A DNA stretch of 64,000 nt from Sipunculus nudus (lineage: Eukaryota; Annelida; Sipuncula; Golfingiida; Sipunculidae). Positions 779-59,441 of this stretch are shown piece after piece (position 1 is the first letter of the stretch; every line of letters starts with the position of its first letter). The DNA lies in NCBI GenBank assembly GCA_026874595.1, contig CM049311.1, forward strand, positions 31,639,176-31,703,175, written 5' to 3'. The position numbers were made by a program, and so were the translations under genes. Under the pieces are notes generated by a model. The model did no database searches and was not told the DNA's origin. It saw nothing but the letters and a program-made list of their open reading frames with translations.

Positions 779-788
779 CTGCTCACAG
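779..788. repeat. Left target-site duplication of the foldback element
   Basis: The 10-bp word CTGCTCACAG ends directly before the left terminal inverted repeat and recurs perfectly at 20792-20801, directly after the right one. Because the word begins CTG and ends CAG, the boundary can slide symmetrically: a 10-bp TSD with termini ACGTCAAGG, 8 bp with GACGTC, or 4 bp (CTCA) with CAGACGTC fit equally well. Confidence 0.85.
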
Positions 789-1149
789 ACGTCAAGGAAA
801 TTCATAGCGTATTCGACATTCGAGGTTCGAGATTCAGATTCAGAATACTCCCCTATTGCTCCAAAAGCCTCTATCTTTCCATGCCCTCTAAACGGGGATT
901 CCCAGCCTCATCAAGGGTTACCGTTAAACGGAGCAAGCCATATCCTTCTCCAGAATTTTACAGAGCAGTTATCAGAGCAGCACAAACGGCCGTTTTAGAG
1001 CAGCAGCCAAGCATATCTTGGTCCAATTCGCATATATCTATCGATATTTACGGCCTCCTTTCTGTGACGAATGCCATGTACCGGCAGACTATATCGTTTT
1101 TTTTTCTCACCGTCATGTACCGGCAGACTATATCGTTTTTTTTCTCACC
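789..1149 (+). repeat. Outer terminal inverted repeat, left (non-array part)
   Basis: About 300 bp align with the reverse complement of 20485-20791 with only scattered substitutions and small indels. The segment includes the first copy of the palindromic core AAACGGCCGTTT (about 987). Near its inner edge a 38-39 bp piece containing ATGTACCGGCAGACTATATC followed by a T run is tandemly duplicated (about 1076-1150). The right end has one copy. Confidence 0.85.
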
Positions 1150-4100
1150 GTCATGTTGGGTATCAACTTTAACCACACGCCCTTCGTTTTCCAGATAATG
1201 ATTGGAGTGGCACAAACGGCCATTTAAGAACAGGCCTCCATTTTGATATTCGCCGAAAGTAGGGCACAAATCGCTGCTTTGACGGCCCACAGAGCCAAAC
1301 TATCATTTTTTCAAGGTCACCTTGCATACCATTCCATACCTCGCCTATACCGCCTTAACATCCAATAATAACTAGAGCGGCACAAAGAGCCGTTTCAGAG
1401 CATTGTGCCATTTGGATATTCGCCAATCTGCCCATAGAAGCCAAAATAACACACACCTCCCTATTCTGACCGCCGCAGGCCCGAAAAATATCGTTTTTTC
1501 GACGCCATGTTGGGTATCAAGTCAAAGCCCACACCCCTGGCTGTGAGGCCCAATAATTATTAGAGCGGCACAAAAAGCCGTTTTAGAGCAGCGGCCCGCC
1601 ATTATCTCAAAAAGGCCAAAAATATTGGGAACATCGCTTATACGGCCCCTCACCGGTCACAACCATCGTTTTTTCAAGGTCGTCTTTCCCACCAATCGAC
1701 AGCCCGTCCACTCCGCATTCACGTCCCATGATAATTAGAGCGGCCCAAACGGCCGTTTCAGAGCAGGCCTCCATTTTTTATATTCGCCGAAAATAGGGCA
1801 CAAATCGCTGCCTTGACGGCCCCCAGAGCCAAACTATCGTTTTTTCAAGGTCACCTTGCATACCATTCGATACCTCGCCCATCCCGCCTTCACATCCAAT
1901 AAAAACTAGAGCGGCACAAAGAGCCGTTTCAGAGCAGTGCGCCATTTGGATATTCGCCAATCTTCCCAAAGAAGCCAGAATAACACACACCTCGCTATTC
2001 TGACCGCCGCAGGCCCGCAAACTATCGTTTTCCGACGCCATGTTGGGTTATCAAGTCAAAGCCCACACCCCTGGCTGTCCGGCCCAATAATTATTCGAGC
2101 GGCACAAAAAGCCGTTTTAGAGCAGAGGCCCGCCATTATATCGAAAAGGCCATAAACATTGGGAACATCGCTTATACGGCTCCCACGGGTCACAACCATC
2201 GTTTTTTCAAGGTCGTCTTTCCCACCGGTCGACAGTCTGTCCACTCCGCCCTCACGCCCCATGATAATTCGAGCGGCACAAACGGCCGTTTCAGAGCAGG
2301 CCTCCGTTTTGATATTCGCCGATAATAGGGCACACATCGCTGCTTTGACGGCCCCCAGAGCCAAACTATCATATTTTCAAGGTCAACTGGCATACCATTC
2401 GATACCTCGCCCATCCCGCCTTCACATCCAATAATATCTAGAGCGGCACAAAGAGCCGTTTTCAGAGCAGTGCGCCATTTGGATATTCGCCAATATTCCC
2501 ATAGATGCCAGAATTACACACACCTTGCTATTCTGACCGCCGCAGGCCCGCAAACTATCGTTTTTCCGACGCCATGCTGGGTATCAAGTCAAAGCCCACA
2601 TGCCTGGCTGTCCGGCCCAATAATTATTAGAGCGGCACAAAAAGCCGTTTTAGAGCAGCGGCCCGCCATTATCTCAAAAAGGCCAAAAACATTGGGAACA
2701 TCGCTTACACGGCCCCCCACCGATCACAACCATCGTTTTTTCAAGGTCGTCTTTCCCACCGATCGACAGCCCGTCCACTCCGCCCTCACGCCCCATTATA
2801 ATCTGAGCGGCACAAACGGCCGTTTTAGAGCAGGCCTCCATTTTGATATTCGCCGAAAATAGGGCACAAATCGCTGCTTTGACGGCCCCCAGAGCCAAAC
2901 TATCGTTTTTTCAAGGTCACCTTGCATACCATTCGATACCTCGCCCATCCCGCCTTCACATCCAATAATAACTAGAGCGGCACAAAGAGCCGTTTCAGAG
3001 CAGTGCGCCATTTGGATATTCGCCAATCTTCCCATAGAAGCCAGAATAACACACACCTCGCTATTCTGACCGCCGCAGGCCCGCAAACTATCGTTTTTCC
3101 GACGCCATGTTGGGAATCAAGTCAAAGCCCACACCCCTGGCTGTCCGGCCCAATAATTATTAGAACGGCACAAAAAGCTGTTTTAGAGCAGCGGCCCGCC
3201 ATTATCTCGAAAAGGCCAAAAACATTGGGAACATCCCTTATACGGCCTCCACAGGTCACAACCATCGTTTTTTCAAGGTCGTCTTTCCCACCGATCGACA
3301 GCCCGTCTACTCCGCCCTCACACCCCATGATAATTACAGCGGCACAAACGGCCGTTTCAGAGCAGGCCTCCATTTTGATATTCGTCGAAAATAGGGCACA
3401 AATCGCTGCTTTAACGGCCCACAGAGCAAAACTATAGTTTTTTCAAGGTCATCTTGCATACTATTTGATACCTCGCCCATACCGCCTTAACATCCAATAA
3501 GAACTAGAGCGGCACAAAGAGCCGTTTCAGAGCAGTGCGCCATTTTGATATTCGCCAATCTTCCTTTAAAAGCAAGAAAAACACACACCTCGTTATCCTG
3601 ACCGCCGCAGGCCCGCTAACTATCGTTTTTTTGACGCAATGTATGGTATCAAGTTAAAGCCCACACCCCTGGCTCTCCGGCCCAATAATTATAAGAGCGG
3701 CACAAAAAGCCGTTTCAGAGCAGCGGCCCGCCATTATCTCGAAAAGGCCAAAAACATTGGGAACATCGCTTATACGGGCCCCCACGGGTCACAACCATCG
3801 TTTTTTCAAGGTCGTTTTTCCAACCGATCGACAGCCTGTCCACTACGTCCTCGCGCCCCATGATAATTCGAGCGGCACAAACGGCCGTTTCAGAGCATGC
3901 CTCCATTTTTTATATTCGCCGAAAATAGGGCACAAATCGCTGCCTTGACGGCCCCCAGAGCCAAACTATCGTTTTTTCAAGGTCACCTTGCATACCATTC
4001 GATACCTCGCCCATCCCGCCTTCACATCCAATAATAACTAGAGCGGCACAAAGAGCCGTTTCAGAGCAGTGCGCCATTTGGATATTCGCCAATCTTCCCA

Positions 4101-7100
4101 TAGAAGCCAGAATAACACACACCTCGCTATTCTGACCGCCGCAGGCCCGCAAACTATCGTTTTTCCGACGCCATATTGGGTATCAAGTCAAAGCCCACTC
4201 CCCTGGCTGTCCGGCCCAATAATTATTAGAACGGCACAAAAAGCTGTTTTAGAGCAGCGGCCCGCCATTATCTCGAAAAGGCCAAAAACATTGGGAACAT
4301 CCCTTATACGGCCTCCACAGGTCACAACCATCGTTTTTTTCAAGGTCGTCTTTCCCACCGATCGACAGCCCGTCTACTCCGCCCTTACACCACATCATAA
4401 TTAGAGCGGCACAAACGGCCGTTTCAGAGCAGGCCTCAATTTTGATATTCGTCGAAAATAGGGCACAAATCGCTGCTTTAACGGCCCACAGAGCAAAACT
4501 ATAGTTTTTTCAAGGTCATCTTGCATACTATTTGATACCTCGCCCATACCGCCTTACCATCCAATAAGAACTAGAGCGGCACAAAGAGCCGTTTCAGAGC
4601 AGTGCGCCATTTTGATATTCGCCAATCTTCCTATAAAAGCAAGAAAAACACACACCTCGTTATCCTGACCGCCGCAGGCACGCTAACTATCGTTTTTTTG
4701 ACGCAATGTATGGTATCAAGTTAAAGCCCACACCCCTGGCTCTCCGGCCCAATAATTATAAGAGCGGCACAAAAAGCCGTTTTAGAGCAGCGGCCCGCCA
4801 TTATATCGAAAAGGCCATAAACATTGGGAACATCGCTTATACGGCCCCCCAAGGGTCACAACCATCGTTTTTTTAGGGTCGTCCTTCCCACCGGTCGACA
4901 GCTTGTCCACTCCGCCCTCACGCCCCATGATAATTCGAGCGGCACAAACGGCCGTTTCAGAGCAGGCCTCCATTTTGATATTCGCCGAAAATAGGGCACA
5001 AATCGCTGCTTTGACGGCCCCCAGAGCCAAACTATCATTTTTTCAAGGTCAACTTGCATACCATTCGATACCTCGGCCATCCCGCCTTCACATCCAATAA
5101 TAACTAGAGCGGCACAAAGAGCCGTTTCAGAGCAGTGCGCCATTTGGATATTCGCCAATCTTCCCATAGAAGCCAGAATAACACACACCTCGCTATTCTG
5201 ACCGCCGCAGGCCCGCAAACTATCGTTTTTCCGACGCCATGTTGGGAATCAAGTCAAAGCCCACACCCTGGCTGTCCGGCCCAATAATTATTAGAACGGC
5301 ACAAAAAGCTGTTTTAGAGCAGCGGCCAGCCATTATCTCGAAAAGGCCAAAAACATTGGGAACATCCCTTATACGGCCTCCACAGGTCACAACCATCGTT
5401 TTTTTCAAGGTCGTCTTTCCCACCGATCGACAGCCCGTCTACTCCGCCCTCACACCACATCATAATTAGAGCGGCACAAACGGCCGTTTCAGAGCAGGCC
5501 TCAATTTTGATATTCGTCGAAAATAGGGCACAAATCGCTGCTTTAACGGCCCACAGAGCAAAACTATAGTTTTTTCAAGGTCATCTTGCATACTATTTGA
5601 TACCTCGCCCATACCGCCTTACCATCCAATAAGAACTAGAGCGGCACAAAGAGCCGTTTCAGAGCAGTGCGCCATTTTGATATTCGCCAATCTTCCTATA
5701 AAAGCAAGAAAAACACACACCTCGTTATCCTGACCGCCGCAGGCCCGCTAACTATCGTTTTTTTGACGCAATGTATGGTATCAAGTTAAAGCCCACACCC
5801 CTGGCTCTCCGGCCCAATAATTATAAGAGCGGCACAAAAAGCCGTTTCAGAGCAGCGGCCCGCCATTATCTCGAAAAAGCCAAAAACATTGGGAACATCG
5901 CTTATACGGGCCCCCACGGGTCACAACCATCGTTTTTTCAAGGTCGTTTTTCCAACCGATCGACAGCCTGTCCACTACGTCCTCGCGCCCCATGATAATT
6001 CGAGCGGCACAAACGGCCGTTTCAGAGCATGCCTCCATTTTTTATATTCGCCGAAAATAGGGCACAAATCGCTGCCTTGACGGCCCCCAGAGCCAAACTA
6101 TCGTTTTTTCAAGGTCACCTTGCATACCATTCGATACCTCGCCCATCCCGCCTTCACATCCAATAATAACTAGAGCGGCACAAAGAGCCGTTTCAGAGCA
6201 GTGCGCCATTTGGATATTCGCCAATCTTCCCATAGAAGCCAGAATAACACACACCTCGCTATTCTGACCGCCGCAGGCCCGCAAACTATCGTTTTTCCGA
6301 CGCCATATTGGGTATCAAGTCAAAGCCCACTCCCCTGGCTGTCCGGCCCAATAATTATTAGAACGGCACAAAAAGCTGTTTTAGAGCAGCGGCCCGCCAT
6401 TATCTCGAAAAGGCCAAAAACATTGGGAACATCCCTTATACGGCCTCCACAGGTCACAACCATCGTTTTTTTCAAGGTCGTCTTTCCCACCGATCGACAG
6501 CCCGTCTACTCCGCCCTTACACCACATCATAATTAGAGCGGCACAAACGGCCGTTTCAGAGCAGGCCTCAATTTTGATATTCGTCGAAAATAGGGCACAA
6601 ATCGCTGCTTTAACGGCCCACAGAGCAAAACTATAGTTTTTTCAAGGTCATCTTGCATACTATTTGATACCTCGCCCATACCGCCTTACCATCCAATAAG
6701 AACTAGAGCGGCACAAAGAGCCGTTTCAGAGCAGTGCGCCATTTTGATATTCGCCAATCTTCCTATAAAAGCAAGAAAAACACACACCTCGTTATCCTGA
6801 CCGCCGCAGGCCCGCTAACTATCGTTTTTTTGACGCAATGTATGGTATCAAGTTAAAGCCCACACCCCTGGCTCTCCGGCCCAATAATTATAAGAGCGGC
6901 ACAAAAAGCCGTTTTAGAGCAGCGGCCCGCCATTATATCGAAAAGGCCATAAACATTGGGAACATCGCTTATACGGCCCCCCAAGGGTCACAACCATCGT
7001 TTTTTTAGGGTCGTCTTTCCCACCGGTCGACAGCTTGTCCACTCCGCCCTCACGCCCCATGATAATTCGAGCGGCACAAACGGCCGTTTCAGAGCAGGCC

Positions 7101-10100
7101 TCCATTTTGATATTCGCCGAAAATAGGGCACAAATCGCTGCTTTGACGGCCCCCAGAGCCAAACTATCATTTTTTCAAGGTCAACTTGCATACCATTCGA
7201 TACCTCGGCCATCCCGCCTTCACATCCAATAATAACTAGAGCGGCACAAAGAGCCGTTTCAGAGCAGTGCGCCATTTGGATATTCGCCAATCTTCCCATA
7301 GAAGCCAGAATAACACACACCTCGCTATTCTGACCGCCGCAGGCCCGCAAACTATCGTTTTTCCGACGCCATGTTGGGAATCAAGTCAAAGCCCACACCC
7401 TGGCTGTCCGGCCCAATAATTATTAGAACGGCACAAAAAGCTGTTTTAGAGCAGCGGCCAGCCATTATCTCGAAAAGGCCAAAAACATTGGGAACATCCC
7501 TTATACGGCCTCCACAGGTCACAACCATCGTTTTTTTCAAGGTCGTCTTTCCCACCGATCGACAGCCCGTCTACTCCGCCCTCACACCACATCATAATTA
7601 GAGCGGCACAAACGGCCGTTTCAGAGCAGGCCTCAATTTTGATATTCGTCGAAAATAGGGCACAAATCGCTGCTTTAACGGCCCACAGAGCAAAACTATA
7701 GTTTTTTCAAGGTCATCTTGCATACTATTTGATACCTCGCCCATACCGCCTTACCATCCAATAAGAACTAGAGCGGCACAAAGAGCCGTTTCAGAGCAGT
7801 GCGCCATTTTGATATTCGCCAATCTTCCTATAAAAGCAAGAAAAACACACACCTCGTTATCCTGACCGCCGCAGGCCCGCTAACTATCGTTTTTTTGACG
7901 CAATGTATGGTATCAAGTTAAAGCCCACACCCCTGGCTCTCCGGCCCAATAACTATAAGAGCGGCACAAAAAGCCGTTTTAGAGCAGCGGCCCGCCATTA
8001 TCTCGAAAAGGCCAAAAACATTGGGAACATCGCTTATACGGGCCCCCACGGGTCACAACCATCGTTTTTTCAAGGTCGTTTTTCCAACCGATCGACAGCC
8101 TGTCCACTACGTCCTCGCGCCCCATGATAATTCGAGCGGCACAAACGGCCGTTTCAGAGCATGCCTCCATTTTTTATATTCGCCGAAAATAGGGCACAAA
8201 TCGCTGCCTTGACGGCCCCCAGAGCCAAACTATCGTTTTTTCAAGGTCATCTTGCATACCATTCGATACCTCGCCCATCCCGCCTTCACATCCGATAATA
8301 ACTAGAGCGGCACAAAGAGCCGTTTCAGAGCAGTGCGCCATTTGGATATTCGCCAATCTTCCCATAGAAGCCAGAATAACACACACCTCGCTATTCTGAC
8401 CGCCGCAGGCCCGCAAACTATCGTTTTTCCGACGCCATGTTGGGAATCAAGTCAAAGCCCACACCCCTGGCTGTCCGGCCCAATAATTATTAGAACGGCA
8501 CAAAAAGCTGTTTTAGAGCAGCGGCCAGCCATTATCTCGAAAAGGCCAAAAACATTGGGAACATCCCTTATACCGCCTCCACAGGTCACAACCATCGTTT
8601 TTTTCAAGGTCGTCTTTCCCACCGATCGACAGCCCGTCTACTCCGCCCTCACACCACATCATAATTAGAGCGGCACAAACGGCCGTTTCAGAGCAGGCCT
8701 CAATTTTGATATTCGTCGAAAATAGGGCACAAATCGCTGCTTTAACGGCCCACAGAGCAAAACTATAGTTTTTTCAAGGTCATCTTGCATACTATTTGAT
8801 ACCTCGCCCATACCGCCTTACCATCCAATAAGAACTAGAGCGGCACAAAGAGCCGTTTCAGAGCAGTGCGCCATTTTGATATTCGCCAATCTTCCTATAA
8901 AAGCAAGAAAAACACACACCTCGTTATCCTGACCGCCGCAGGCCCGCTAACTATCGTTTTTTTGACGCAATGTATGGTATCAAGTTAAAGCCCACACCCC
9001 TGGCTCTCCGGCCCAATAATTATAAGAGCGGCACAAAAAGCCGTTTCAGAGCAGCGGCCCGCCATTATCTCGAAAAGGCCAAAAACATTGGGAACATCGC
9101 TTATACGGGCCCCCACGGGTCACAACCATCGTTTTTTCAAGGTCGTTTTTCCAACCGATCGACAGCCTGTCCACTACGTCCTCGCGCCCCATGATAATTC
9201 GAGCGGCACAAACGGCCGTTTCAGAGCATGCCTCCATTTTTTATATTCGCCGAAAATAGGGCACAAATCGCTGCCTTGACGGCCCCCAGAGCCAAACTAT
9301 CGTTTTTTCAAGGTCATCTTGCATACCATTCGATACCTCGCCCATCCCGCCTTCACATCCGATAATAACTAGAGCGGCACAAAGAGCCGTTTCAGAGCAG
9401 TGCGCCATTTGGATATTCGCCAATCTTCCCATAGAAGCCAGAATAACACACACCTCGCTATTCTGACCGCCGCAGGCCCGCAAACTATCGTTTTTCCGAC
9501 GCCATGTTGGGTATCAAGTCAAAGCCCACTCCCCTGGCTGTCCGGCCCAATAATTATTCGAGCGGCACAAAAAGCCGTTTTAGAGCAGCGGCCCGCCATT
9601 ATATCGAAAAGGCCATAAACATTGGGAACATCGCTTATACAGCCCCCCAAGGGTCACAACCATCGTTTTTTTAGGGTCGTCTTTCCCACCGGTCGACAGC
9701 CTGTCCACTCCGCCCTCACGCCCCATGATAATTCGAGCAGCACAAACGGCCGTTTCAGAGCAGGCCTCCATTTTGATATTCGCCGAAAATAGGGCACAAA
9801 TCGCTGCTTTGACTGCCCCCAGAGCCAAACTATCATTTTTTCAAGGTCAACTTGCATACCATTCGATACCTCGGCCATCCCGCCTTCACATCCAATAATA
9901 ACTAGAGCGGCACAAAGAGCCGTTTCAGAGCAGTGCGCCATTTGGATATTCGCCAATCTTCCCATAGAAGCCAGAATAACACACACCTCGCTATTCTGAC
10001 CGCCGCAGGCCCGCAAACTATCATTTTTCCGACGCCATGTTGGGAATCAAGTCAAAGCCCACACCCCTGGCTGTCCAGCCTAATAATTATTAGAACGGCA

Positions 10101-13100
10101 CAAAAAGCCGTTTTAGAGCAAAGGCCTGCAATTATCTAGAAAAGGCCAAAAACATTGGGAACATCGCTTATACGGGCCCCCACGGGTCACAACCATCGTT
10201 TTTTCAAGATCGTTTTTCCAACCGATCGACAGCCTGTCCACTACGTCCTCGCGCCCCATGATAATTAGAGCGGCACAAACGGCCGTTTCAGAGCATGCCT
10301 CCATTTTTTATATTCGCCGAAAATAGGGCACAAATCGCTGCCTTGACGGCCCCCAGAGCCAAACTATCGTTTTTTCAAGGTCATCTTGCATACCATTCGA
10401 TACCTCGCCCATCCCGCCTTCACATCCGATAATAACTAGAGCGGCACAAAGAGCCGTTTCAGAGCAGTGCGCCATTTGGATATTCGCCAATCTTCCCATA
10501 GAAGCCAGAATAACACACACCTCGCTATTCTGACCGCCGCAGGCCCGCAAACTATCGTTTTTCCGACGCCATGTTGGGTATCAAGTCAAAGCCCACTCCC
10601 CTGGCTGTCCGGCCCAATAATTATTCGAGCGGCACAAAAAGCCGTTTTAGAGCAGCGGCCCGCCATTATATCGAAAAGGCCATAAACATTGGGAACATCG
10701 CTTATACGGCCCCCCAAGGGTCACAACCATCGTTTTTTTAGGGTCGTCTTTCCCACCGGTCGACAGCCTGTCCACTCCGCCCTCACGCCCCATGATAATT
10801 CGAGCGGCACAAACGGCCGTTTCAGAGCAGGCCTCCATTTTGATATTCGCCGAAAATATGGCACAAATCGCTGCTTTGACGGCCCCCAGAGCCAAACTAT
10901 CATTTTTTCAAGGTCAACTTGCATACCATTCGATACCTCGGCCATCCCGCCTTCACATCCAATAATAACTAGAGCGGCACAAAGAGCCGTTTCAGAGCAG
11001 TGCGCCATTTGGATATTCGCCAATCTTCCCATAGAAGCCAGAATAACACACACCTCGCTATTCTGACCGCCGCAGGCCCGCAAACTATCGTTTTTCCGAC
11101 GCCATGTTGGGAATCAAGTCAAAGCCCACACCCCTGGCTGTCCAGCCTAATAATTATTAGAACGGCACAAAAAGCCGTTTTAGAGCAGCGGCCCGCCATT
11201 ATCTCGAAAAGGCCAAAAACATTGGGAACATCGCTTATACGGCCCCCACCGGTCACAACCATCGTTTTTTCAAGGTCGTCTTTCCCACCGATCGACAGCC
11301 CGTCTACTCCGCCCTCACATCCCATGATAATTAGAGCGGCACAAACGGCCGTTTCAGAGCAGGCCTCCATTTTGATATTCGTCGAAAATAGGCACAATTC
11401 GCTGCTTTAACGGCCCACAGAGCAAAACTATAGTCTTTTCAAGGTCATCTTGCATACTATTTGATACCTCGCCCATACCGCCTTACCATCCAATAAGAAC
11501 TAGAGCGGCACAAAGAGCCGTTTCAGAGCAGTGCGCCATTTTGATATTCGCCAATCTTCCCATAAAAGCCAGAAAAACACACACCTCGTTATCCTGACCG
11601 CCGCAGGCCCGCTAACTATCGTTTTTTTGACGCAATTTTGGGTATCAAGTCAAAGCCCACACCCCTGGCTCTCCGGCCCAATAATTATTAGAGCGGCACA
11701 AAAAGCCGTTTTAGAGCAGCGGCCCGCCATTATCTCGAAAAGGCCAAAAACATTGGGAACATCGCTTATACGGGCCCCCATGGGTCACAAACATCGTTTT
11801 TTCAAGGTCGTTTTTCCAACCGATCGACAGCCTGTCCACTACGCCCTCGCGCCCCATGATAATTCGAGCGGCACAAACGGCCGTTTCAGATAAGGCCTCC
11901 ATTTTTTATATTCGCCGAAAATAGGGCACAAATCGCTGCCTTGACGGCCCCCAGAGCCAAACTATCGTTTTTTCAAGGTCACCTTGCATACCATTCGATA
12001 CCTCGCCCATCCCGCCTTCACATCCAATAATAACTAGAGCGGCACAAAGAGCCGTTTCAGAGCAGTGCGCCATTTGGATATTCGCCAATCTTCCCATAGA
12101 AGCCAGAATAACACACACCTCGCTATTCTGACCGCCGCAGGCCCGCAAACTATCGTTTTTCCGACGCCATGTTGGGTATCAAGTCAAAGCCCACTCCCCT
12201 GGCTGTCCGGCCCAATAATTATTCGAGCGGCACAAAAATCCGTTTTAGAGCAGCGGCCCGCCATTATATCGAAAAGGCCATAAACATTGGGAACATCGCT
12301 TATACGGCCCCCCAAGGGTCACAACCATCGTTTTTTTAGGGTCGTCTTTCCCACCGGTCGACAGCCTGTCCACTCCGCCCTCACGCCCCATGATAATTCG
12401 AGCGGCACAAACGGCCGTTTCAGAGCAGGCCTCCATTTTGATATTCGCCGAAAATAGGGCACAAATCGCTGCTTTGACGGCCCCCAGAGCCAAACTATCA
12501 TTTTTTCAAGGTCAACTTGCATACCATTCGATATCTCGGCCATCCCGCCTTCACATCCAATAATAACTAGAGCGGCACAAAGAGCCGTTTCAGAGCAGTG
12601 CGCCATTTGGATATTCGCCAATCTTCCCATAGAAGCCAGAATAACACACACCTCGCTATTCTGACCGCCGCAGGCCCGCAAACTATCGTTTTTCCGACGC
12701 CATGTTGGGAATCAAGTCAAAGCCCACACCCCTGGCTGTCCAGCCTAATAATTATTAGAACGGCACAAAAAGCCGTTTTAGAGCAGCGGCCCGCCATTAT
12801 CTCGAAAAGGCCAAAAACATAGGGAACATCGCTTATACGGCCCCCACCGGTCACAACCATCGTTTTTTCAAGGTCGTCTTTCCCACCGATCGACAGCCCG
12901 TCTACTCCGCCCTCACATCCCATGATAATTAGAGCGGCACAAACGGCCGTTTCAGAGCAGGCCTCCATTTTGATATTCGTCGAAAATAGGCACAATTCGC
13001 TGCTTTAACGGCCCACAGAGCAAAACTATAGTCTTTTCAAGGTCATCTTGCATACTATTTGATACCTCGCCCATACCGCCTTACCATCCAATAAGAACTA

Positions 13101-14016
13101 GAGCGGCACAAAGAGCCGTTTCAGAGCAGTGCGCCATTTTGATATTCGCCAATCTTCCCATAAAAGCCAGAAAAACACACACCTCGTTATCCTGACCGCC
13201 GCAGGCCCGCTAACTATCGTTTTTTTGACGCAATTTTGGGTATCAAGTCAAAGCCCACACCCCTGGCTCTCCGGCCCAATAATTATTAGAGCGGCACAAA
13301 AAGCCGTTTTAGAGCAGCGGCCCGCCATTATCTCGAAAAGGCCAAAAACATTGGGAACATCGCTTATACGGGCCCCCATGGGTCACAAACATCGTTTTTT
13401 CAAGGTCGTTTTTCCAACCGATCGACAGCCTGTCCACTACGCCCTCGCGCCCCATGATAATTCGAGCGGCACAAACGGCCGTTTCAGATAAGGCCTCCAT
13501 TTTTTATATTCGCCGAAAATAGGGCACAAATCGCTGCCTTGACGGCCCCCAGAGCCAAACTATCGTTTTTTCAAGGTCACCTTGCATACCATTCGATACC
13601 TCGCCCATCCCGCCTTCACATCCAATAATAACTAGAGCGGCACAAAGAGCCGTTTCAGAGCAGTGCGCCATTTGGATATTCGCCAATCATCCCATAGAAG
13701 CCAGAATAACACACACCTCGCTATTCTGACCGCCGCAGGCCCGCAAACTATCGTTTTTCCGACGCCATGTTGGGTATCAAGTCAAAGCCCACACGCCTGG
13801 CTGTCCGGCCCAATAATTATTCGAGCGGCACAAAAAGTTTCAGAGCGGGCCTCCATTTTGCTATGGAAAATAAGGCACAAATCGATGCTTTAACGGCCCC
13901 CAGAGCCAAACTATCGTTTTTTCAAGTTCACCTTTCATACCTTTTGATACCTCGCCCATACCGCCGATCGACCGATCGACAGCCCGTCCACTCCGCCCTT
14001 ACATACAATAATAATT
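1150..14016 (+). repeat. Left-arm tandem array of ~533-bp units with higher-order structure
   Basis: About 24 units of roughly 533 bp. Each is built from three sub-repeats of about 177 bp that carry AGAGCGGCACAAA...GCCGTTT...AGAGCAG, with core variants aaaaagccgtttt, aaacggccgttt and aaagagccgtttc. The phrase TCAAGTCAAAGCCCACACCC marks the unit period (about 1518, 2054, 2585, 3119). Later units are near-identical in larger blocks: landmarks at 3639, 5771 and 7903 are 2,132 bp apart, 7903 to 8970 and 9400 to 10467 are 1,067 bp, and 11531 to 13129 is 1,598 bp, i.e. 4, 2 and 3 units. Many recurring open frames of 60-144 codons on both strands are by-products of the repeat. Confidence 0.95.
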
Positions 14017-14329
14017 GACCTGACGGCGAGTGCGTGATCAACAGGTCAATTAATAAATCAGCGAACGTGATTGCTGGACTGAAACGAGGATATATATTTT
14101 CTAATTTGCAAACCAATGTGTCTAAAAATAGCGTATTGTTCAGAATTTAAAATTTCTAATTTATCAACGAATTCGGTCTTTTATTATCAAATTTTGCTTA
14201 CTAATAGGTTAAATATATTTTTATAAATTATTTAGTATTAATTTAAAATTAATTTACTTTGCTATTTGCTATATAAGCACAACATGGCATCTTCTGGTTT
14301 ACTCCTGTATAATTTTTTTTTAAAAAGGT

Positions 14330-14490
14330 GTGTACATTGCATTGGAAACAGCTTAACTAATAAAGAACTATATTTAACGATAACAATAACAAGTATTGCA
14401 AAGACTTAATATGGGGGGGGGGGGGGGGGAGGGTGGCACATGAGAATGACTGTACACCTGTGACAGGAAGGCCTTGGCGACCCGAGGACT
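14330..14490. repeat. Segment shared with 61.93-62.10 kb
   Basis: Both places read GTACATTG, then ACAATAACAA.TATTGCA, then a long G run, then GAGAAT.ACTGTACACCTGTG and ACAG in the same order and spacing. This indicates a dispersed repeat or a copied piece of flanking DNA within the foldback loop. Confidence 0.45.
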
Positions 14491-15208
14491 TCAATACTCA
14501 TGCTTTCAAACTTAAGAATTTAACACATTAAATGTGTATGTGTACATGCTGTGAAAATTAGATCAAATGTACTTACAGTATAAAAAAAGTGCCATGGTTA
14601 TTGTTTTTGTGATAACTTTTACAACAGAACATCTTGCTTAAGAGTAGCGGCACGGTTCAGTGATTCTGTACATGGACGGCAGATCAACACTGTTTCAACT
14701 GAATTTGATTTTCAGGAATTTTGTTGTAATTTTTTTACAACGTACTCTGCTCGAATACAGTCGGTTAAACTGACCCATCGTTTTCGAATGTTTTCAACCT
14801 CAAGGCATTAGGAACGTGTTTCTAATAAATACACATTTTGTCACATTTTGTCCTTAACACATTTTGACGAGAAGATTAATAAATATAAATAAAACGGGTT
14901 AAGGTCAGTCAATGGGTGAACGATCGACATGAGGATAATTGTCTAATGTCTCATCAGATCATTACTGATGATAACATTCACAAAAATTTGAAAGAAACAA
15001 AAAAAAGTAAGGACATTATTTATTTAAAAAAAACATACATGATCATATTATGTACAATATATATAATTATATACAAGAGATGTCACGATATATACACGAA
15101 ATCTATACGTTTACATATATCATCCAAACGACATGGCACCATTTACGATATTGAACCATGTGGAACGCTGTGGAAATTCTCATGCGTTCTTGCTATCTGC
15201 CTTTTTTT

Positions 15209-16100
15209 CTACTGACCCTTTTGCGCACACAAATAAATCAAAACCTTCCCTAACATGTTTTTCCCCTTCCACTGCTGTGGGTACAAAGCCCTCACATCCC
15301 TCATGTCGAGGACAACTCCCCATTTCCTATCGAAGGGAGAGGCCTGGACTAGTCTTGCTCTGCCTGTCCACAGGAGGAAATCTCCCAAAGTCTTGATTCT
15401 GTGAAAACTAAAATAAATGGAAAAGACACATGAAAAGGTATTCAGCAATTGTGAAAATGTGCTGTGTCTCTAGATGATTACAAGAAGAGCTATCGATTTT
15501 CGTTTTTGCAGGTGTCAAATTGTTTTCCAGTTTTAACTCACCGGGTGCAATTTGAAACATCATACAAACATATCCGGCCCACTTTATCCGTTTTTGTCTT
15601 GTCAGTGTAGAATAGCTACTTTTTTATGAGTTGTTTGGGTAAAGAATATATATATACTGATCATCAATAAACATGTATAACGATTAATTGACCCACTTTA
15701 TCTGTATAGACTTACATTCTAATTGTTGTGAGTTAAGAAAATATAGACATCTCCTATGTATAATCTTTATTTTTATAAACCAGATATATTTATATTTATA
15801 TTTATGATCTCGTGATGTTCATATACACATAACAAAAGAATAAAAAATAAAACAGTCAGAACTTTGTATGTTATATGCACACGTTATTTTCCATGTGTCC
15901 TTATTGTTATAACTGTAGCACTCCATGACTGCAGTTGAGCTAGTTCTCACCTTGGCCATGTTGCCCTTTTCAACAACTTCGATCTGGTGGACATTCAATG
16001 TTCCTTCGTCAAAATTCCTCACTCGTCGTCCAAGTTCTATTTGAATGTATGGATTGTCCGTCGTCAAAATGAGTTTTGCCATTTTCTTATAGCCCAAAAA
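15209..16100 (-). pseudogene. NADAR-domain (YbiA/DUF1768-like) gene fragment, decayed, with an intron
   Basis: Two exon-like blocks on the minus strand match the NADAR family by eye. The upstream block (16082-15951, 44 codons) contains ELGRRVRNFDEG and VVEKGNMAK and ends at a good donor, AAG|GTGAGA. The downstream block (from 15407, after a TTTTAG acceptor) starts FSQN and contains LLWTGRARLVQASPFDRKWG, then QQWKGKNMLGKVL. Together they give the conserved GN-AKF-QN, TG..LVEASP.D..WG and W.G.N.LG signatures. NADAR enzymes act on ADP-ribose derivatives, including N-glycosidic ADP-ribosyl adducts. The reading frame is broken and the N-terminal part of the domain is not found, so this is a non-functional remnant. 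Lying inside the foldback loop, it is probably a captured genomic copy that kept its intron, not a retrocopy. Confidence 0.7.
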
Positions 16101-16535
16101 TCAATACAAGCAACGGAATGAATACATGTAGAACTAGTGATAACTGATACAAATACAACAAACATGATATATGTACAGATGAGAAGAGAAAAACATAACT
16201 AATGCACGTGGAATATTAAAGCATAAATAATGTTAAAAATGTGAGAATAGGCTCTACATTTAAAGTATGAAAAAATAAGAATCCGAAACGTGTGTATGTT
16301 TTGAATCTCTTTGTAACCGCGAAAAGTTGTGTTCAGAAAAATAGAACGTTAAATTTTATAAATAAAGTGATCATTATAATATACAGTTGAGTAAATTCAA
16401 TTGTATTAAAACCATGTAAAACAAGCAAGTAGTTGCAACTTTTTTTCCAAATTTAAATCAATACAGCTTATAGGAATACACTTGCATTAATAACTTATGA
16501 ATAATATTAAATAAATGAACAGAATAACTATCTTA

Positions 16536-17062
16536 TCCCTTTAACAACTGAAGAAATTGTTAACAGTATAAAATCATAAAACAGTGGTATAGCACCTGGC
16601 ATTGATAATGTGGTCGTTGAACTGTATAAAATGGCACTAATTCATTAGTTCGGGCATTGAAGAAAATGTATAATTGTTTTACGGCTAAAGGATCATTTCC
16701 TTTAAAATTGAGACATGCTGTGTTGGTACTATTGTATAAAGGAGGGTCATATTCAGATGTGAATAAGTTTAGAGGTATATCCTTACTGGGTGTTACTTCA
16801 AAAATATTTACAGGAATTTTAAATAATCGCCTTGTTAAAATGGCAGAAGAAAATCACAGATTTTATGAAGAACAAGCAGGATACAGACAAAATCGAAGTG
16901 CAATAGATAATATATTTTCATTATACAGTGTTGTGCATAAGTATTTTACAAGAGAAAAAGGTCTGTGCTAATGTTTATTTGTCGACTTCAGCAAAGCGTT
17001 CGACCGAATATCGATTAGTCTTCTTTGGTATAGGCTGATGAATATAGACGTACATAGAAAAA
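16536..17062 (+). pseudogene. LINE (non-LTR retrotransposon) reverse transcriptase fragment
   Basis: Pieces in two frames spell the N-terminal half of a LINE reverse transcriptase: LTTEEIVNSIKS and APGIDNVVVELYK, then the block RGISLLGVTSKIFTGILNNRL, EEQAGYRQNRSAIDNIF and, past a stop codon, VDFSKAFDRIS followed by LLWYRLMNIDVH. This runs from before the fingers to the first catalytic Asp motif (FVDFSKAFD). The YADD motif, endonuclease and 3' end are absent. Several stops and at least one frameshift show it is dead. The match ends within a few bases of the first right-arm repeat unit, so the arm boundary cut it. The clade is not determined; the style resembles the I/Jockey/CR1 group. Confidence 0.85.
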
Positions 17063-20000
17063 TGGCCTTTTCGAGATAATGGCGGGCCGTTGTTCTAAAC
17101 CGCCTTTTTGTGCCGCTCAAATAATTATTGGGCCGGACAGCCAGGCGTGTGGGCTTTGACTTGATACCCAACATGGCGTCGAAAAAACGATAGTTAGCGG
17201 GCCTGTGAATAGCGAGGTGTGTGTTATTCTGGCTCCTATGGAAAGATAGGCGAATATCCAAATGGCACACTGCTCTGAAATGACTCTTTGTGCCGCTCTA
17301 GTTATTATTGGATGGGAAGGCGGTATGGGCGAGGTATCGAATGGTATGCAAGGTGACCTTGAAAAAACGATAGTTTGGCTCTGGGGGCCGTTAAAGCAGT
17401 GATTTGTGCCCTATTTTCGGCGAATATCAAAATGGATTCCTGCTCTGAAACGGCCGTTTGTGCCGCTATGGGCTTCTATGGGAAGATTGACGAATATTCA
17501 AATGGCGCACTGCTCTGAAACGGCTCTTTGTGCCGCTCTAATTATCATGGGATGTGAGGGTGGAGTGGACGTGCTGTCGATCGGTGGGAAAGACGACCTT
17601 GAAAAAATGATTGTTGTGACCCGAAGGGGGCCGTATATGCGATGTTCCCAATATTTTTGGCCTTTTCTAGATAATTGCGGGCCGCTGCTCGAAAACGGCT
17701 TTTTGTGCCGCTCTCATAATTACTGGGCTGGACAGCAAGACGTGTGGGCTTTGACTTGATAGCCAACATGGCGTCGAAAAAACGATAGTTTGCGGGCCTG
17801 CGGCGGTCAGAATATTGAGTTGTGTTTTTTTGGCTTCTATTTGAAGATTTGCGAATATCAAAATGGCGCACTGCTCTGAAATGGCTCGTTGTGCCGCTCT
17901 AGTTATTATTGGATGTGAAGGCAGGATGGGCGAGGTATCAAATGGTATGCAAGGTGACCTTGAAAAAAGATAGTTTAGCTCTGGGGGCCGTTAAAGCAGC
18001 GATTTTTGCCCTATTTTCGGCGAATATCAAAATGGAGGCCTGCTCTGAAACGGCCGTTTGTGCCGCTCTAATTTTCATGGGTTGTGAGGAAGGAGTGGAC
18101 GTGCTGTCGATCGGTGGGAAAGACGACCTTGAAAAAACGATGATTGTGACCCGTGGGGGGGCCGTATAAGCGATGTTCCCAATATTTTTGGCCTTTTCTA
18201 GATAATTGCAGGCCTTTGCTCTAAAACGGCTTTTTGTGCCGCTCTAATAATTATTGGGCTGAACACGAAGACGTGTGGGCTTTGACTTGATAGCCAACAT
18301 GGCGTCGAAAAATCGATAGTTTGCGGGCCTGCGGCGGTCAGAATAGCGAGGTGTGTGTTTTTCTGGCTTCTCTAGGAAGATTGGCGAATATCAAAATGGC
18401 GCACTGCTCTGAAACGGCTCTTTATGCCGCTCTAGTTATTATTGGATGGGAAGGCGGTATGGGCGAGGTATCAAATGGTATGCAAGGTGACCTTGAAAAA
18501 ACGATAGTTTGGCTCTGGGGGCCGTTAAAGCAGTGATTTGTGCCCTATTTTCGGCGAATATCAAAATGGATTCCTGCTCTGAAACGGCCGTTTGTGCCGC
18601 TATAATTATCATGGGATGTGGGGGCGGGGTGGACGGGCTGTCGATCGGTGGGAAAGAAGACCTTGAAAAAACGATGGTTCTGACCCGTGGGGGCCGTATA
18701 AGCGATATTCCCAATATTTTTTGCCTCGTCTAGATAATGGCGGGCCGCTGCTCGAAAACGGCTTTTTGTGCCGCTCTAATAATGATTGGGCCAGACATCC
18801 AGAGGTGCGGGCTTTGACTTGATAGCCAACATGGGGTCGAAAAAAACTATAGTTAGGATAGTTAGCGGGCCTGCGGCGGTCAGAATAGCGACGAGTGTGT
18901 TTTTCTGGCTTCTATGGGAAGATTGACGAATATTCAAATGGCGCACTGCTCTGAAACGGCTCTTTGTGCCGCTCTAATTATCATGGGATGTAAGGGTGGA
19001 GTGGACGTGCTGTCGATCGGTGGGAAAGACGACCTTGAAAAAATGATTGTTGTGACCCGAAGGGGGCCGTATAAGCGATGTTCCCAATATTTTTGGCCTT
19101 TTCCAGATAATGGCAGGCCGCTGCGCTAAAACGGCTTTTTGTGCCGCTCTAATAATTATTAGGCCGGACAGCCAAAGGCATGGGCATGCTCTGAAATGGC
19201 TCTTTGTGCCGCTCTAGTTATTATTGGATGTGAAGGCAGAATGGGCGAGGTATCAAATAGTATGCAAGGTGACCTTAAAAAAACGATAGTTTGGCTCTAG
19301 GGGCCGTTAAAGCAGCGATTTTTGCCCTATAATCGGCGAATATCAAAATGGAGGCCTGTTCTGAAACGGCCGTTTGTGCCGCTATGATTATCATGGGATG
19401 TGAGGGCGGGGTGGACGGGCTGTCGATCGATGGGAAAGACGACCTTGAAAAAACGATGGTTTTGACCCGTGGGGGCCGTATAAGCGATGTTCCCAATATT
19501 TTTTGCCTTTCTAGATAATAGCGGACCGCTGCTCTAAAACGGCTTTTTGTGCCGCTCTAATAATTATTAGGCCGGACAGCCAAAGGTGTGGGCTTTGACT
19601 TGATAGCCAACATGGCGTCGAAGAAACGATAGTTTGCGGGCCTGCGGCGGTCAGAATAGCGAGGAATGTGTTTTTCTGGCTTCTATGGTAAGATTGGCGA
19701 ATATCAAAATGGCGCACTGCTCTGAAACGACTCTTTGTGCCGCTCTAGTTATTATTGGAAGGGAAGGCGGTATGGGGGAGGTATCAAATGGTATGCAAGG
19801 TGACCTTGAAAAAACGTTAGTTTGGCTCTGGGGGCCGTTAAAGCATCGATTTGTGCCCTATTTTCTGCGAATATCAAATTGGAGGTCAAAATATGCTCAG
19901 AAACGGCCGTTTGTGCCGCTCTAATTATCATGGGATGTAAGGGCGGAGTGGACGGGCTGTCGATCGGTGGGAAAGACGACCTTGAAAAAACGATGGTTGT

Positions 20001-20484
20001 GACCTCTGGGGGGCCGTATAAGCGATGTTCCCAATATTTTTGGCCTTTTCTAGATAATTGCGGGAAGCTGCTCGAAAACGGGTTTTTGTGCCGCTCTAAT
20101 AATTATTGGGCTGGACAGCCAGAGATGTGGGCTTTGACTTGATAGCCAACATGGCGTCGAAAAAACTATAGTTTGCGGGCCTGCGGCGGTCAGAATAGCG
20201 AGGTGTGTGTTTTTTCTGGCTTCTATGGGAAGATAGGCGAATATCAAAATGGCGCACTGAGGTATCGAATGGTATGCAAGGTGACCTTAAAAAAACGATA
20301 GTTTGGCTCTGTGGGCCGTTAAAGCAGCGATTTGAGCCCTATTTTCGGCGAATATCAAATTGGAGGTCTGCTCTGAAACGGTCGTTTGTGCCGCTCTAAT
20401 TATTATCGGGTTGGAAAACGAAGGGCGTGCACATGTGGGGAAAATTGATACCAAACATACGGAGAAAAAAAAAAAAAAAAAAAC
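17063..20484 (-). repeat. Right-arm tandem array, inverted copy of the left array
   Basis: The same family of about 533-bp units (about 6.4 of them) in reverse-complement orientation, starting with the complement of the GCCCGCCATTATCTCGAAAA stretch. Units differ more from each other than left-arm units do and lack obvious near-identical 1-2 kb blocks. Some are internally shortened: near 19187 a unit jumps abruptly from the GGCCGGACAGCC region to TGCTCTGAAATGG, and near 20260 a partial deletion joins ATGGCGCACTG to GAGGTATCGAATGG. Confidence 0.9.
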
Positions 20485-20791
20485 GATATATAGTCTGCCG
20501 GTACATGGCATTCGTCATAGAAAGGAGGCCGTAAATATCGATAGATATATGCGATTTGGACCAAGATATGGTTGGCTGCTGCTCTAAAACGGCCGTTTGG
20601 GCTGCTCTGATAACTGCTCTGTATTATTCTGAAGAAGGATGCCTTGCTCCGTTTCACGATAACCCTTGATGAGGCTGGGAATCCCCGTTTGGAGGGCACG
20701 GAAAGATAGAGGATTTTGGAGCAATGGGGGAGTATTATGGATCTGAATCTCGAACCTCGAATATCGAATACGCTATGAATTTCCTTGACGT
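20485..20791 (-). repeat. Outer terminal inverted repeat, right
   Basis: Reverse complement of the left outer TIR (789-1149), from an A-run followed by CGATATATAGTCTGCCGGTA to the end ...TTCCTTGACGT. It differs from the left copy by scattered substitutions and small indels, implying the arms have drifted since insertion or escaped full homogenisation. Confidence 0.85.
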
Positions 20792-20801
20792 CTGCTCACA
20801 G
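20792..20801. repeat. Right target-site duplication of the foldback element
   Basis: CTGCTCACAG, identical to 779-788. No similarity between the two flanks extends further, as expected for an insertion footprint. Confidence 0.85.
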
Positions 20802-28160: not shown

Positions 28161-28846
28161 TCCATGGGTTTTCTTGGCCCAGCGGTTACGACTTAGGCCC
28201 TGTTAATGGACGGCCGGGCGGATGACGGAAAAGATGATTTTCCGTCAGCTGAGCTAAAAACAATAAGGTTACGCGAATGAACCAAGAGCGATAAAGGGCC
28301 AACATGCATACCGACAATATTCGGCAGAAAAACTGGTTATATTAATTCACAATACAAAAAAAAAAAAATAAGCACAAAGCAATTGAGGAAATAAGAATGT
28401 GATTCATTTATAAACGTTTTAAGTTGTCTGCACACTTAATCAACTGTTAATAGTGATGAACAGGTTACTCCTAAGCAAAACAAAACAAAAAAATTATGTC
28501 GGCATACAATGGCAGTCTAAAATGAAGGCCACATTAAATTATTAACACCATACTCGATGTTACAGTTCTGTTGAAGTGTAAAAAAAGATTAGAAAATCAA
28601 TGATTTTCTGCATGAATGTTCAGACAACATAGTTAAAAATTGAACTGACGGTTGGCTGGTTGGTTACAAATAATATGTTTCGAGGGGGATCAACATTAAC
28701 AAATTAGTTTACACAAAGGTGGTTCAGTACAAGGTGCGGTAAGTAGAGCTCAAACTTTAAAATAGAACATATCATGTGTGTTACAGAACATTTACGGCAG
28801 TGAAATAAATATTTTCTTTGATTGTTATTTTATATGCATATGAATT
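28161..28846. other. Gene-free stretch
   Basis: AT-rich sequence in which no gene or clear repeat was recognised. Confidence 0.4.
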
Positions 28847-29208
28847 AAATACGGCCGTATATAAGGACCTTTCCATTAAGCCTGCAGAGCGCTCACCCTC
28901 TGGGGGACCGAACGTGAAAAATCTCACCGTCTCGGCTGAGATTTGAACTCATGATCTTTGAGTCCTGTGCTCTACCTATTAGCCCCAGGAGCCGGAGACT
29001 ACAGTTTAAACAATTGTTCACCTGTGTAGTTGGGGCGTCATATTCTCGAAGGACTAATTTTCCTTTCGCGAATATCGCGAAATTGAAACCCTCCCGCACA
29101 AAAACAAACCGACCATAGAATACACAGAGCCAGGTTATAGGTAATGTTGTTGTTTTGTGTCTAACTGTCAGGAGATTAAAAATACATTTACACATATATC
29201 CTAACATT
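28847..29208 (-). repeat. tRNA-like SINE unit, copy 1 of a tandem pair
   Basis: The unit begins TAAATACGGCCGTATATAAG and recurs at 29209. On the minus strand about 28995-28925 reads like a tRNA head: a D-arm/A-box-like GGGGCTAATAGGTAGAGC, then CAGGACTCAAAGATCATG, then a T-arm TGAG-TTCAAAT-CTCA with a 4-bp stem. The body has no RNA-gene completeness, such as a paired acceptor stem, so it is taken as a SINE-like element. Confidence 0.55.
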
Positions 29209-29575
29209 AAATACGGCCGTATATAAGGACCTTTCCATTAAGCCTGCAGAGCGCTCACCCTCTGGGGGACCGAACGTGAAGAATCTCACCGTCTCGGCTG
29301 ACATTTGAACTCATGATCTTTGAGTCCTGTGCTCTACCTATGAGCCCCAGGAGCCGGAGACTACAGTTTAAACAATTGTTCACCTGTGTAGCTGGGGCGT
29401 CATATTCACGAAGAACTAATTTTCCTTTCGCGAATGCGAAATTGAAACCCTCCCGCACAAAAACAAACCGACCATAGATTACACAGAGCCAGGTTATAGG
29501 TAATGTTGTTTTGTCTCTAACTATCAGGATATCAAAAATACATTTACACATATATCCTACACATTTCCCCCAATA
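29209..29575 (-). repeat. tRNA-like SINE unit, copy 2 of a tandem pair
   Basis: Near-identical to the preceding unit (period about 362 bp), including the tRNA-like head at about 29358-29283, with small indels (GCGAATGCGAAA versus GCGAATATCGCGAAA; one GTT missing). The closeness points to a fairly recent tandem duplication. Confidence 0.6.
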
Positions 29576-31047: not shown

Positions 31048-31170
31048 AAATAATATCGTCAGCGATGTTGGGAGGACTGGTTACCTGACGTCCGCAACTT
31101 ATACCAAAAGATGTCGCTGTAATCATCGACGGAAGCCGAATTGGACCGGGGCGACCCGAACTGAGTTAAC
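31048..31170 (+). other. Probable 5' UTR part of gene 1 exon
   Basis: A good splice acceptor (TTTTTGTTTCTTCAG at 31033-31047) precedes the gene 1 start by 123 bp. Gene 2 also has an acceptor just upstream of its ATG (59441), so a non-coding first exon further upstream is likely in both. Confidence 0.45.
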
Positions 31171-32420
31171 ATGTTGCGCCAGTGTCTCCACCTTAGGCGG
31201 GTCCTCCGCATGAGGCGGGCCGAGACGTTCCTGTGGTTTCTCTGTGGAGGGATTCTGATGCTCTTCATGGAACAGACGCGTTCTCTCACGACTACAGTAA
31301 AGCTCCGAGCAGACGTCGTCCAAGGTGAGGACCAGTTACTACTGTATAAAATGGAACAAAGAGTCCACCAAGAGCTTCTATCCGATGAAAAGGCGAGTGT
31401 CCATGCAGTGGACGGTGCGGTCCTGCGACCGGAAGTGAATAATGCTGATAGATCTGATGTGAATAAAGTATCTTCACAGCCGGAAGTGTATGGTCCTTTA
31501 CCAGCGAGAGTTCTTGAAAAACCGACAGCAGATAATTCTAATATACCGGCGATGGATGATTCTATGCGTCGCGCTCTCCGAGGTGGAAGTAGCACAGGGG
31601 CTTCCGAAGAACCAATTCAGAAACCGATGGTTAAGGATACCTCATTCACTTACAGAAATCTGTTCGGGGGAAGTTCTGATATCCACGAATCAAACAACAT
31701 TGCCATTGGTTGCGCGATAACCACTAGGGGGCGCCTGAGTGGCACTACTCAGGAAGAGCTGACCACTTTACCGTTTTTCAAATCTCTTTTGCCCTCATTT
31801 TGCATCACCGCCAGCATGGGTTTTAATTATCATTTTTATATAGCGTACGATTTTAACGACCCGTTTTTGACGCATGAAGGGGCGGTGCAGAAGTTTCACA
31901 CTGTATTTTACCAAATTGTTTACCGCGAGTGTGGGCAGTCTGTGAAAGCTTACATTCACTTCGTAAAATGTTCGCATACCAAAAAGCCAGCCTGGGCCCA
32001 GAATGACGCCATGATGGAGGCCTACTATGATAATATGGATTACTATTACCGAATTAATGACGATACGGTCCTAAAGACGCCGAGGTGGACAGAGGAATTC
32101 ATTAAAACCTTGCTTTCGTACCACCCACCGAACCTAGGCGTCGTGGGACCGTCATATTTACGTCGAAGAAAAAGAATTCTGACGTACGACTTTGTGCACC
32201 GTACACATATAGATGTGTTCGGGTTTTACTATCCACGGTGTTATGGTGACTGGTACGCTGACCGGTGGATTACAGACGTTTACAGCCCAGGTCGTATGAA
32301 AAAGCGTCGTAATGTCAAGGTCGTCCACACTCTGGCCGTGGGAACGCGCTACCGTCCACACCGAACCCCAGTTAGAAGAATGAACTCTCGGCTAACAAAC
32401 GATAAAAACACCCTTCAAAG
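31171..32420 (+). CDS. Gene 1, exon 1: type II membrane glycosyltransferase-like protein, N-terminal half
   Basis: Encodes residues 1 to 417 (last codon split) of a 709-aa product. A short basic cytoplasmic tail is followed by a membrane anchor (about residues 19-34, FLWFLCGGILMLFM), a variable stem (about 35-172) and a conserved domain (about 175-400). That domain holds KCSHTKKPAWAQNDA (266-280) and RINDDTV (294-300), an acidic DD pair placed as in GT-A nucleotide-sugar transferases, then GVVGP, LTYDFVHRTHIDVFG and DWYADRWITDVY. The exon ends CTTCAAAG|GTAGGT, phase 2. Its paralogue is encoded at 59417-58345. A Golgi location and glycosyltransferase activity are inferred from topology and motifs. 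The donor and substrate are unknown. Confidence 0.85.
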
Positions 32421-32687
32421 GTAGGTTCACCAACAAATAGGGTAAGCCGCAATTCATATTAATATAGTGACATTACGGTAACTGGTATCTTTGTGATCGT
32501 TGGCGTCATTCTGTGTTTATATTATAAGTGTCCACACGTGTTCAAACATATATAACCTTATAATGAACTTAAGTGGCTGATACAAGAATTGCCGTGCCGA
32601 TATAACCCGTGAATAATATAATGAATCCCATCTCGAAGTACCTGTAATATGATGATACCATGAGTGGTCGGTTAATACATTTTATAA

Positions 32688-33405: not shown

Positions 33406-33897
33406 TTCTTTTAATATTACTGCCTATTTCGAATATGCAGGCGGTCAAGTATAGCATATATAGCTTAAATTTAAAAAAAAAACTTATTAGCCTATTCATA
33501 GCCGGGGTATACTTAATTTCTTAATCTTAATTTTACTTTTAACGTCATCGGATTCATATATGACAGTCATTTTCACCAAATTCCAGTAAAATGTGGTGGC
33601 TTTTATGAACTAGGGACAAGCGGGAAATATTAAATATGATCGAATGTGTTTTGAAGTAGCTGTATATGAAGATTGGGAGTTTAAAGTTTTCATTAGAATA
33701 TTACAAATTTAGGTACATGGGGACATTTTTCCACGGTTGATCATGTCACCAGAAATAATTATTTTAGGCCATACAAGTCAGGGATAAGGGTCACAGAGTA
33801 TATTTTAATCACCAGTTTGATCAAATGTTAGTTTGTATAAAGATGGCTCTTCTATGATGACATATTTGTTTTACCTTTATTTATTAATTTTTAACAG

Positions 33898-59417: not shown

Positions 59418-59441
59418 GGCTGGTTAGATCTCAAACAGGCC
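59418..59441 (-). other. Probable 5' UTR remainder of gene 2 exon, with upstream acceptor
   Basis: On the minus strand TTTTATTCTTGCAG (ending 59442) is a good acceptor 24 bp before the ATG, implying a non-coding upstream exon that I could not locate. Confidence 0.5.

Follow-up and report, generated by a model that had tools for sequence, protein, structure and literature searches.

What kind of element lies behind a 20-kb structure of opposed tandem-repeat arms in the genome of Sipunculus nudus, and what could have moved it? The structure occupies part of a 64-kb stretch (the window, C6:31639176-31703175) of a 1.43-Gb genome, and had been described in an initial annotation, from its letters only, as a complete foldback element. 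This description holds: opposed arms, a loop, inverted ends and a flanking duplication are all present, and the long inverted ends with tandem repeats, middle domain and target-site duplication are those of the foldback class. The locus is probably a foldback DNA transposon that is non-autonomous, carries cargo and resembles, by description, the Rehavkus type, a group related to Mutator-like elements (MULEs). It is a mobile unit with defined ends and duplications, and is one of four sister insertions with a near-identical loop and decayed loop genes; a transposase-like gene is present in one relative that has both ends and in another for which a single end was found.

The ends provide the first line of evidence. 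The window contains just two occurrences of CTGCTCACAG, which lie directly outside ACGTCAAGG, starting at 789, and CCTTGACGT, the last base of which is 20791. The perfect 10-bp duplication claimed earlier is therefore real. Nine copies with both ends were found in the genome, the ends lying 3.1 to 41.3 kb apart. The ACGTCAAGG terminus is common to all nine (one has the last base changed at its right end), and a 28-nt terminus pattern gave 52 genome matches with up to three mismatches, versus none for its reversed control. In seven of the nine copies, the direct repeats are exact over 9 bp. Those of the window copy are exact over 10 bp, and those of the 41-kb copy match at seven of nine bases. 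In a control, each left flank was paired with the right flanks of the other copies (72 pairs), and the mean was 2.5 and the maximum 5 matches out of 9; exact repeats in eight of nine copies, set against this maximum, rule out a chance origin. No relation is seen between the 40-nt flanks of one copy and another (mean 9.9, maximum 17 matches out of 40), and four short relatives of 126-185 bp have duplications matching at 9, 8, 8 and 7 of 9 bases. The same termini thus recur in other genomic copies, each with its own duplications, in line with a check proposed in the initial annotation, which had also left the duplication length open (4, 6, 8 or 10 bp). This ambiguity is settled because the duplications of the whole family were compared: the target-site duplication is 9 bp in the family and 10 bp here, with 4, 6 and 8 bp discarded, and the element starts at the A of ACGTC. 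Alternatively, the window copy may have a 9-bp duplication and one extra end base.

The outer arm end was recognized at 48 genome places, a lower bound (40 of the 61 first candidates were scored), and target-site duplications were scored for the nine end pairs and four short copies out of these 48. The ends of L043 and L044 are too diverged for such scoring, and C1:21655120, C1:21731850, C9:42189511 and two C12 ends were examined as single ends. In the single ends L045-L049, the terminus is present twice, 120-130 bp apart; these places look like segmental duplicates, because flanks are shared within the C12 pair and likewise within the C1 pair. A lopsided 3.1-kb family member (L023, C6:31826100-31829900) lies about 170 kb from the window copy.

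The loop provides the second line of evidence. It is AT-richer than the arms and, as had been noted, unrelated to them. One 3.1-kb loop is common to the window copy and the copies on C3, C14 and C2, at 98.1-99.7% identity, in different places and both orientations. With one near-identical loop and arms of unequal length in these four copies, the element moved recently. The loop holds two 3' exons of a NADAR gene, both decayed, and a truncated fragment of a reverse transcriptase of the long interspersed nuclear element (LINE) type; these pieces were probably captured. The two NADAR exons have evident splice sites, and joining them in one frame fails (by eye); inspection of the list of open reading frames (ORFs) by eye did not reveal the N-terminal third of the domain in the loop. 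The exon at 15209..15398 has indels in two of the four other copies compared, and NADAR exon sequence reads LVEASPFDRKWGVGL in a 31-kb copy and LVQASPFDRKWGVVL in the window. The NADAR piece gave no homologues in a search that reaches only proteins sharing exact words with it. The reverse-transcriptase fragment ends where arm B begins and continues further in the 31-kb copy (C11:50126400-50158500; L017-L020). This copy also contains a second, inverted piece of the shared loop, and frames of its loop resemble, by eye, Ty3/gypsy pol and a TatD-type nuclease. Neither the five ORFs scanned with Pfam nor the ORF list inspected by eye revealed a transposase in the loop of the window copy.

A candidate for the missing enzyme is found elsewhere in the family. 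The initial annotation had advised looking for an autonomous relative with matching ends. C6c, a 41-kb both-ended copy (C6:21939074-21980406), has ends as in the window copy and carries a transposase-like but decayed gene. Its minus strand encodes a PHD finger (PF00628, E=8.9e-8, above the cut-off), followed in another frame by LHVDATG, VTDFSWA, HVCVNHM and LSNAEVENWFRAVK, with interrupting stops and frame changes. In both C6c and the C12 relative, LHVDATG, VTDFSWA, HVCVNHM and LSNAEVENWF are DDE-like stretches by eye. MULE-superfamily enzymes have a DDE core with a C-x2-H motif between the second D and the E, and the four C6c motifs may correspond to its D, D, C-x2-H and E. The PHD finger and the DDE-like pieces, which sit in different frames of a decayed gene, may form one protein; this gene also has a weak ubiquitin-protease-like box (E=0.021, below the cut-off). 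Three more distant paralogues, with 36-45% identity, were aligned; one of them, L032, retains each of the four motif stretches. The gene piece has 13 matches in the genome, close ones (84-100%) being confined to C6c itself and C12. The C12 gene copy, decayed like that of C6c, is 93.7-95.7% identical to it in long aligned pieces around the gene, and 88.3% in one short piece. The C12 relative, known from probes only (L030, L045, L050-L055), is largely colinear with C6c, four of five further probes being in order; L052 lends no support to this order, because it matches the same C6c stretch as L051, i.e. a repeat, in L054 just 321 of 2000 bases are matched, and in L050 fewer than half. Homology between C12 and C6c stops within 3 bp of the terminus, beside different flanking DNA. 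The C6c gene represents a candidate for the kind of enzyme that probably moved the window element.

Several observations weigh against the proposed assignment. The window copy duplicates 10 bp rather than 9, and the duplication of C6c is imperfect (7/9). The left end of the C12 relative was not found in the genome search with the 28-nt terminus pattern, and the paralogues L037 and L038 each lack some key residues, leaving L032 as the only complete one of the three. No Pfam transposase model matches the decayed gene (seven ORFs, one read-through and P0001); the Pfam MULE model in particular is not matched by P0001, the sole match of which up to E=10 is Med30 at 0.094, the HMMER filters losing most weak matches. 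A homologue search with the transposase piece, covering only proteins sharing exact words, found none, and a profile search against the PDB yielded only two matches, at chance level.

Some of these points could also suit a foldback element of another MULE lineage (Phantom, FB/NOF-like) or a new neighbour of these lineages, with the PHD finger and tandem ends acquired convergently. Tandem-repeat ends and 8-10-bp duplications are also found in Tm1, with its Phantom-like transposase, and in Tetris; the Pfam MULE domain is absent from the scanned gene pieces, and the likeness to Rehavkus is one of description, not of sequence. This explanation is nevertheless unlikely, as the PHD finger, the DDE-like motifs and a satellite monomer some 175 bp long within the inverted ends match Rehavkus feature by feature. 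Rehavkus traits found here are the 9-bp duplication (exact in seven of nine copies), the PHD finger (in C6c) and the tandem satellite in the inverted termini. Of the options left open by the initial annotation, an undescribed superfamily is not supported, since the 9-bp duplications, PHD finger and tandem-repeat ends fit the described, MULE-related Rehavkus group. Target-site duplications are 8 bp long in hAT elements and 7-8 bp long in the P superfamily, which includes Galileo. The hAT-like option, together with a Galileo-like foldback of the P superfamily, is thus very improbable and can be set aside, given duplications of 9-10 bp and the absence of THAP or hAT domains among the scanned pieces of the relative's gene, despite the long, internally repetitive ends that Galileo also has (PMC3573991). 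Least credible of all is an inverted satellite block produced by local amplification and inversion, with no transposon: it would account for satellite-like arms with higher-order repeats, but one terminus recurs with its own 9- or 10-bp duplications at eight of nine places with unrelated flanks, the loop is shared between C2, C3, C6 and C14, and the exact duplications rule this origin out unless the assembly is wrong at all these loci.

Arm repeats span about 789-14017 and 17062-20791, and the inner edge of arm A (about 13966-14017) was set by eye. The opposed arms align inward over about 1.7 kb at 85% identity (gaps, 7%, included). The outer 287-307 bp of the arms are not tandem; further in, monomers lie mostly 170-189 bp apart, and every three of them make a 533-bp trimer. 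Arm A trimers are 91.6% identical between neighbours, 95.8% two apart and 95.4% four apart, with one run at 99-100%, and this succession from monomer to 533-bp trimer to 1066- and 2132-bp tiers bears out the earlier description of hierarchical satellite-like arrays. Arm lengths, estimated from BLAST coverage in a single assembly, in which long arrays are prone to misassembly, with the copies set in one orientation, are 13.2 and 3.7 kb (A and B) in the window copy, 11.6 and 6.5 kb on C3, 11.8 and 7.2 kb on C14, and 4.8 and 5.4 kb on C2. They are 2.3 and 0.8 kb in C6c, 2.3 and 1.6 kb in the C17 copy and 0.2 and 2.9 kb in C6b; in an 8.8-kb copy on C1, arm faces arm and there is almost no loop. 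The nearest relatives of 17 of the 23 window arm-A trimers lie in arm A of C3; arrays were therefore inherited when the element moved, and then altered in length. In the four loop-sharing copies, identity among the A ends is 99-100%, and likewise among the B ends, but A and B ends differ by 5-6%. As this difference exists within near-identical copies, the arms diverged before the copies moved, and the imperfect match between the arms is therefore no sign of an old insertion. Judged by these identities, the window copy appears to be a young element with old arms, which may have grown by unequal exchange or replication slippage.

A box, AGAGCGGCACAAANNGCCGTTTYAGAGCAG, is present in most arm monomers. 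Overall identity among the three monomer types is 58-69%, but over the box they are near-identical; the outer domain is only 48-52% like the monomers, yet the box is kept there. With up to three substitutions, on both strands, 91 boxes were counted in the window copy and 499 in the nine copies; fixed 28-mers shuffled as a control (20 shuffles, up to five substitutions, one strand) gave no matches. Among 138 trimers, conservation in 24-nt windows is only slightly higher at the box (about 0.94-0.985) than elsewhere (0.90-0.967), and retention of the box across the diverged monomer types and the outer domain is the stronger sign. By analogy with Galileo, whose long ends are bound at several sites by its THAP domain, the boxes may be transposase binding sites; the authors of that study describe the same as untested for Foldback and Phantom (PMC3688188). 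In the mechanism that is proposed here, a transposase made elsewhere, of the kind seen decayed in C6c, would bind the ACGTCAAGG ends, and perhaps also the box repeated in the arm monomers, excise the element and join it to a target cut with a 9- or 10-bp stagger. A C6c-type gene would thus have moved the family in trans, by cut-and-paste.

The idea that gene loss is followed by arm growth is cited in PMC4079207, and the short arms of C6c, set beside the long arms of the four loop-sharing copies, fit such a sequence. Against it, the arms of C17 and C6b are little or no longer than those of C6c. By extension, the arms could be growing working parts, each monomer with a transposase box, with which gene-less elements of 20-30 kb would out-compete their 41-kb parent. 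This extension is tentative and rather doubtful, as the short arms of C17 and C6b make the pattern of arm lengths non-uniform. If it were true, transposon ends would become higher-order satellite arrays under selection for transposition. The positions of the features are collected in Table 1.

Table 1. Positions in the window of the parts of the foldback element and of its loop contents, with the basis for each.
Feature	Position	Strand	Basis
Left target-site duplication, CTGCTCACAG, 10 bp	779..788	+	Letter match and family comparison
Arm A outer end domain, non-tandem, begins ACGTCAAGG	789..1075	+	48 genome places (lower bound)
Arm A array, monomers in 533-bp trimers, tiers of 1066 and 2132 bp	1076..14017	+	23 trimers covered at least 90%
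Loop	14018..17061	.	Recurs in three other copies at 98-99.7%, in the 31-kb copy at about 95-97%
NADAR-domain exon, C-terminal part, probably captured, decayed	15209..15398	-	Pfam PF08719, E=3.3e-12; 3' splice site by eye
NADAR-domain exon, middle part	15951..16086	-	PF08719, E=4e-6, profile positions 55-105, below curated cut-off
LINE-type reverse-transcriptase fragment, in-frame stop	16630..17064	+	PF00078, E=1.1e-4 on 16630-16971, below curated cut-off; remainder by eye
Arm B array, arm A monomers in opposite orientation	17062..20484	-	3 trimers covered at least 90%
Arm B outer end domain, ends CCTTGACGT	20485..20791	-	94% identical to end A
Right target-site duplication, CTGCTCACAG	20792..20801	+	Letter match and family comparison

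The exact terminus and arm-box patterns each gave no matches in viral contigs, the arm-box pattern gave none in bacterial and archaeal genomes, and Rfam and tRNA scans gave none. Elsewhere in the window, the ORFs at 31165-32421 (+), 33821-34774 (+), 52382-54379 (-) and 58302-59423 (-) look by eye like paralogous pairs, and these four long ORFs have no Pfam match at E 0.001. Homologues of the ORF at 52382-54379 occur in Owenia, Capitella, Lingula and Mercenaria, the best of the named ones being annelids, with the brachiopod and the bivalve lower, which suggests an annelid or other lophotrochozoan host. Two overlapping ORFs of 555 and 832 aa lie at 39775-43795 (+), the second with a cysteine-rich, CXC-like tail; they have one weak Pfam match, below the cut-off, and are possibly the gene of another mobile element. 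A direct duplication of about 300 bp is present at 28844-29151 and 29206-29510, with 97-99% identity and starts about 360 bp apart.

The family forms a series within one genome and with one terminus, comprising a transposase-bearing relative, copies in which no transposase was seen and whose arms measure about 0.2 to 13 kb, a near-loopless copy and miniatures of 126-185 bp. The growth of foldback arms, the role of arm repeats as binding sites and the seeding of higher-order satellites by transposons therefore become testable.

Galileo, from Drosophila, differs from this family in its transposase, which belongs to the P superfamily, in its termini and in the length of its duplications. The two are alike in their long, internally repetitive ends, at several sites of which the Galileo THAP domain binds (PMC3688188). 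Tm1, from Meloidogyne, is a Mutator/foldback element with tandem inverted ends, mostly 9-bp duplications and transposase-bearing, MITE-like (miniature inverted-repeat transposable element-like) and other forms (PMC3169594); its tandem unit is 13-15 bp long and its transposase Phantom-like. FB4 / Ssk-FB4, from Drosophila melanogaster, is a foldback element that contains a captured gene, has multiplied by transposition and is flanked by 9-10-bp duplications, its ends being repetitive and prone to rearrangement (PMC8277862). The probably captured cargo here consists instead of the 3' part of a NADAR gene, in decay, and a LINE fragment, and this comparison is one of structure, not sequence. Tetris, from Drosophila virilis, is a foldback element with tandem repeats of about 220 bp, 8-10-bp duplications, no transposase inside and a shorter deletion relative (PMC4079207). 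Its inverted ends measure at most 1.7 kb and its transposase was not found, whereas the family described here has arms of up to 13.2 kb and a transposase-like gene between the same ends; a foldback family thus gains a candidate transposase that Tetris is without.

Among arthropod MULEs, inverted repeats of 13-1193 bp are given in the text, and of up to 1527 bp in a table, of a 2026 survey (PMC13359780). No report of foldback arms of comparable size was found among the papers listed on foldback size, higher-order repeats and lophotrochozoans, a search of mostly open papers, without Repbase, that carries little weight. The closest likeness is to Rehavkus, a Repbase group (Rehavkus-1_TC, Rehavkus-1_HR) characterized by a 9-bp duplication, a PHD finger and satellite-like inverted termini. 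Rehavkus elements are described as having a minisatellite and as being hosted by Arthropoda and Annelida (PMC6446971), and in Rehavkus-1_TC, from Tribolium, the inverted termini contain a 164-bp satellite (PMC10218199). In contrast to Rehavkus as described, the arms here reach 13.2 kb, with some 70 boxes, trimers and higher tiers, the window copy carries cargo but no transposase, and the relative with a transposase gene between two ends measures 41 kb. What is new here is the combination of arms of up to 13.2 kb, built in three repeat tiers, with a transposase-bearing relative.

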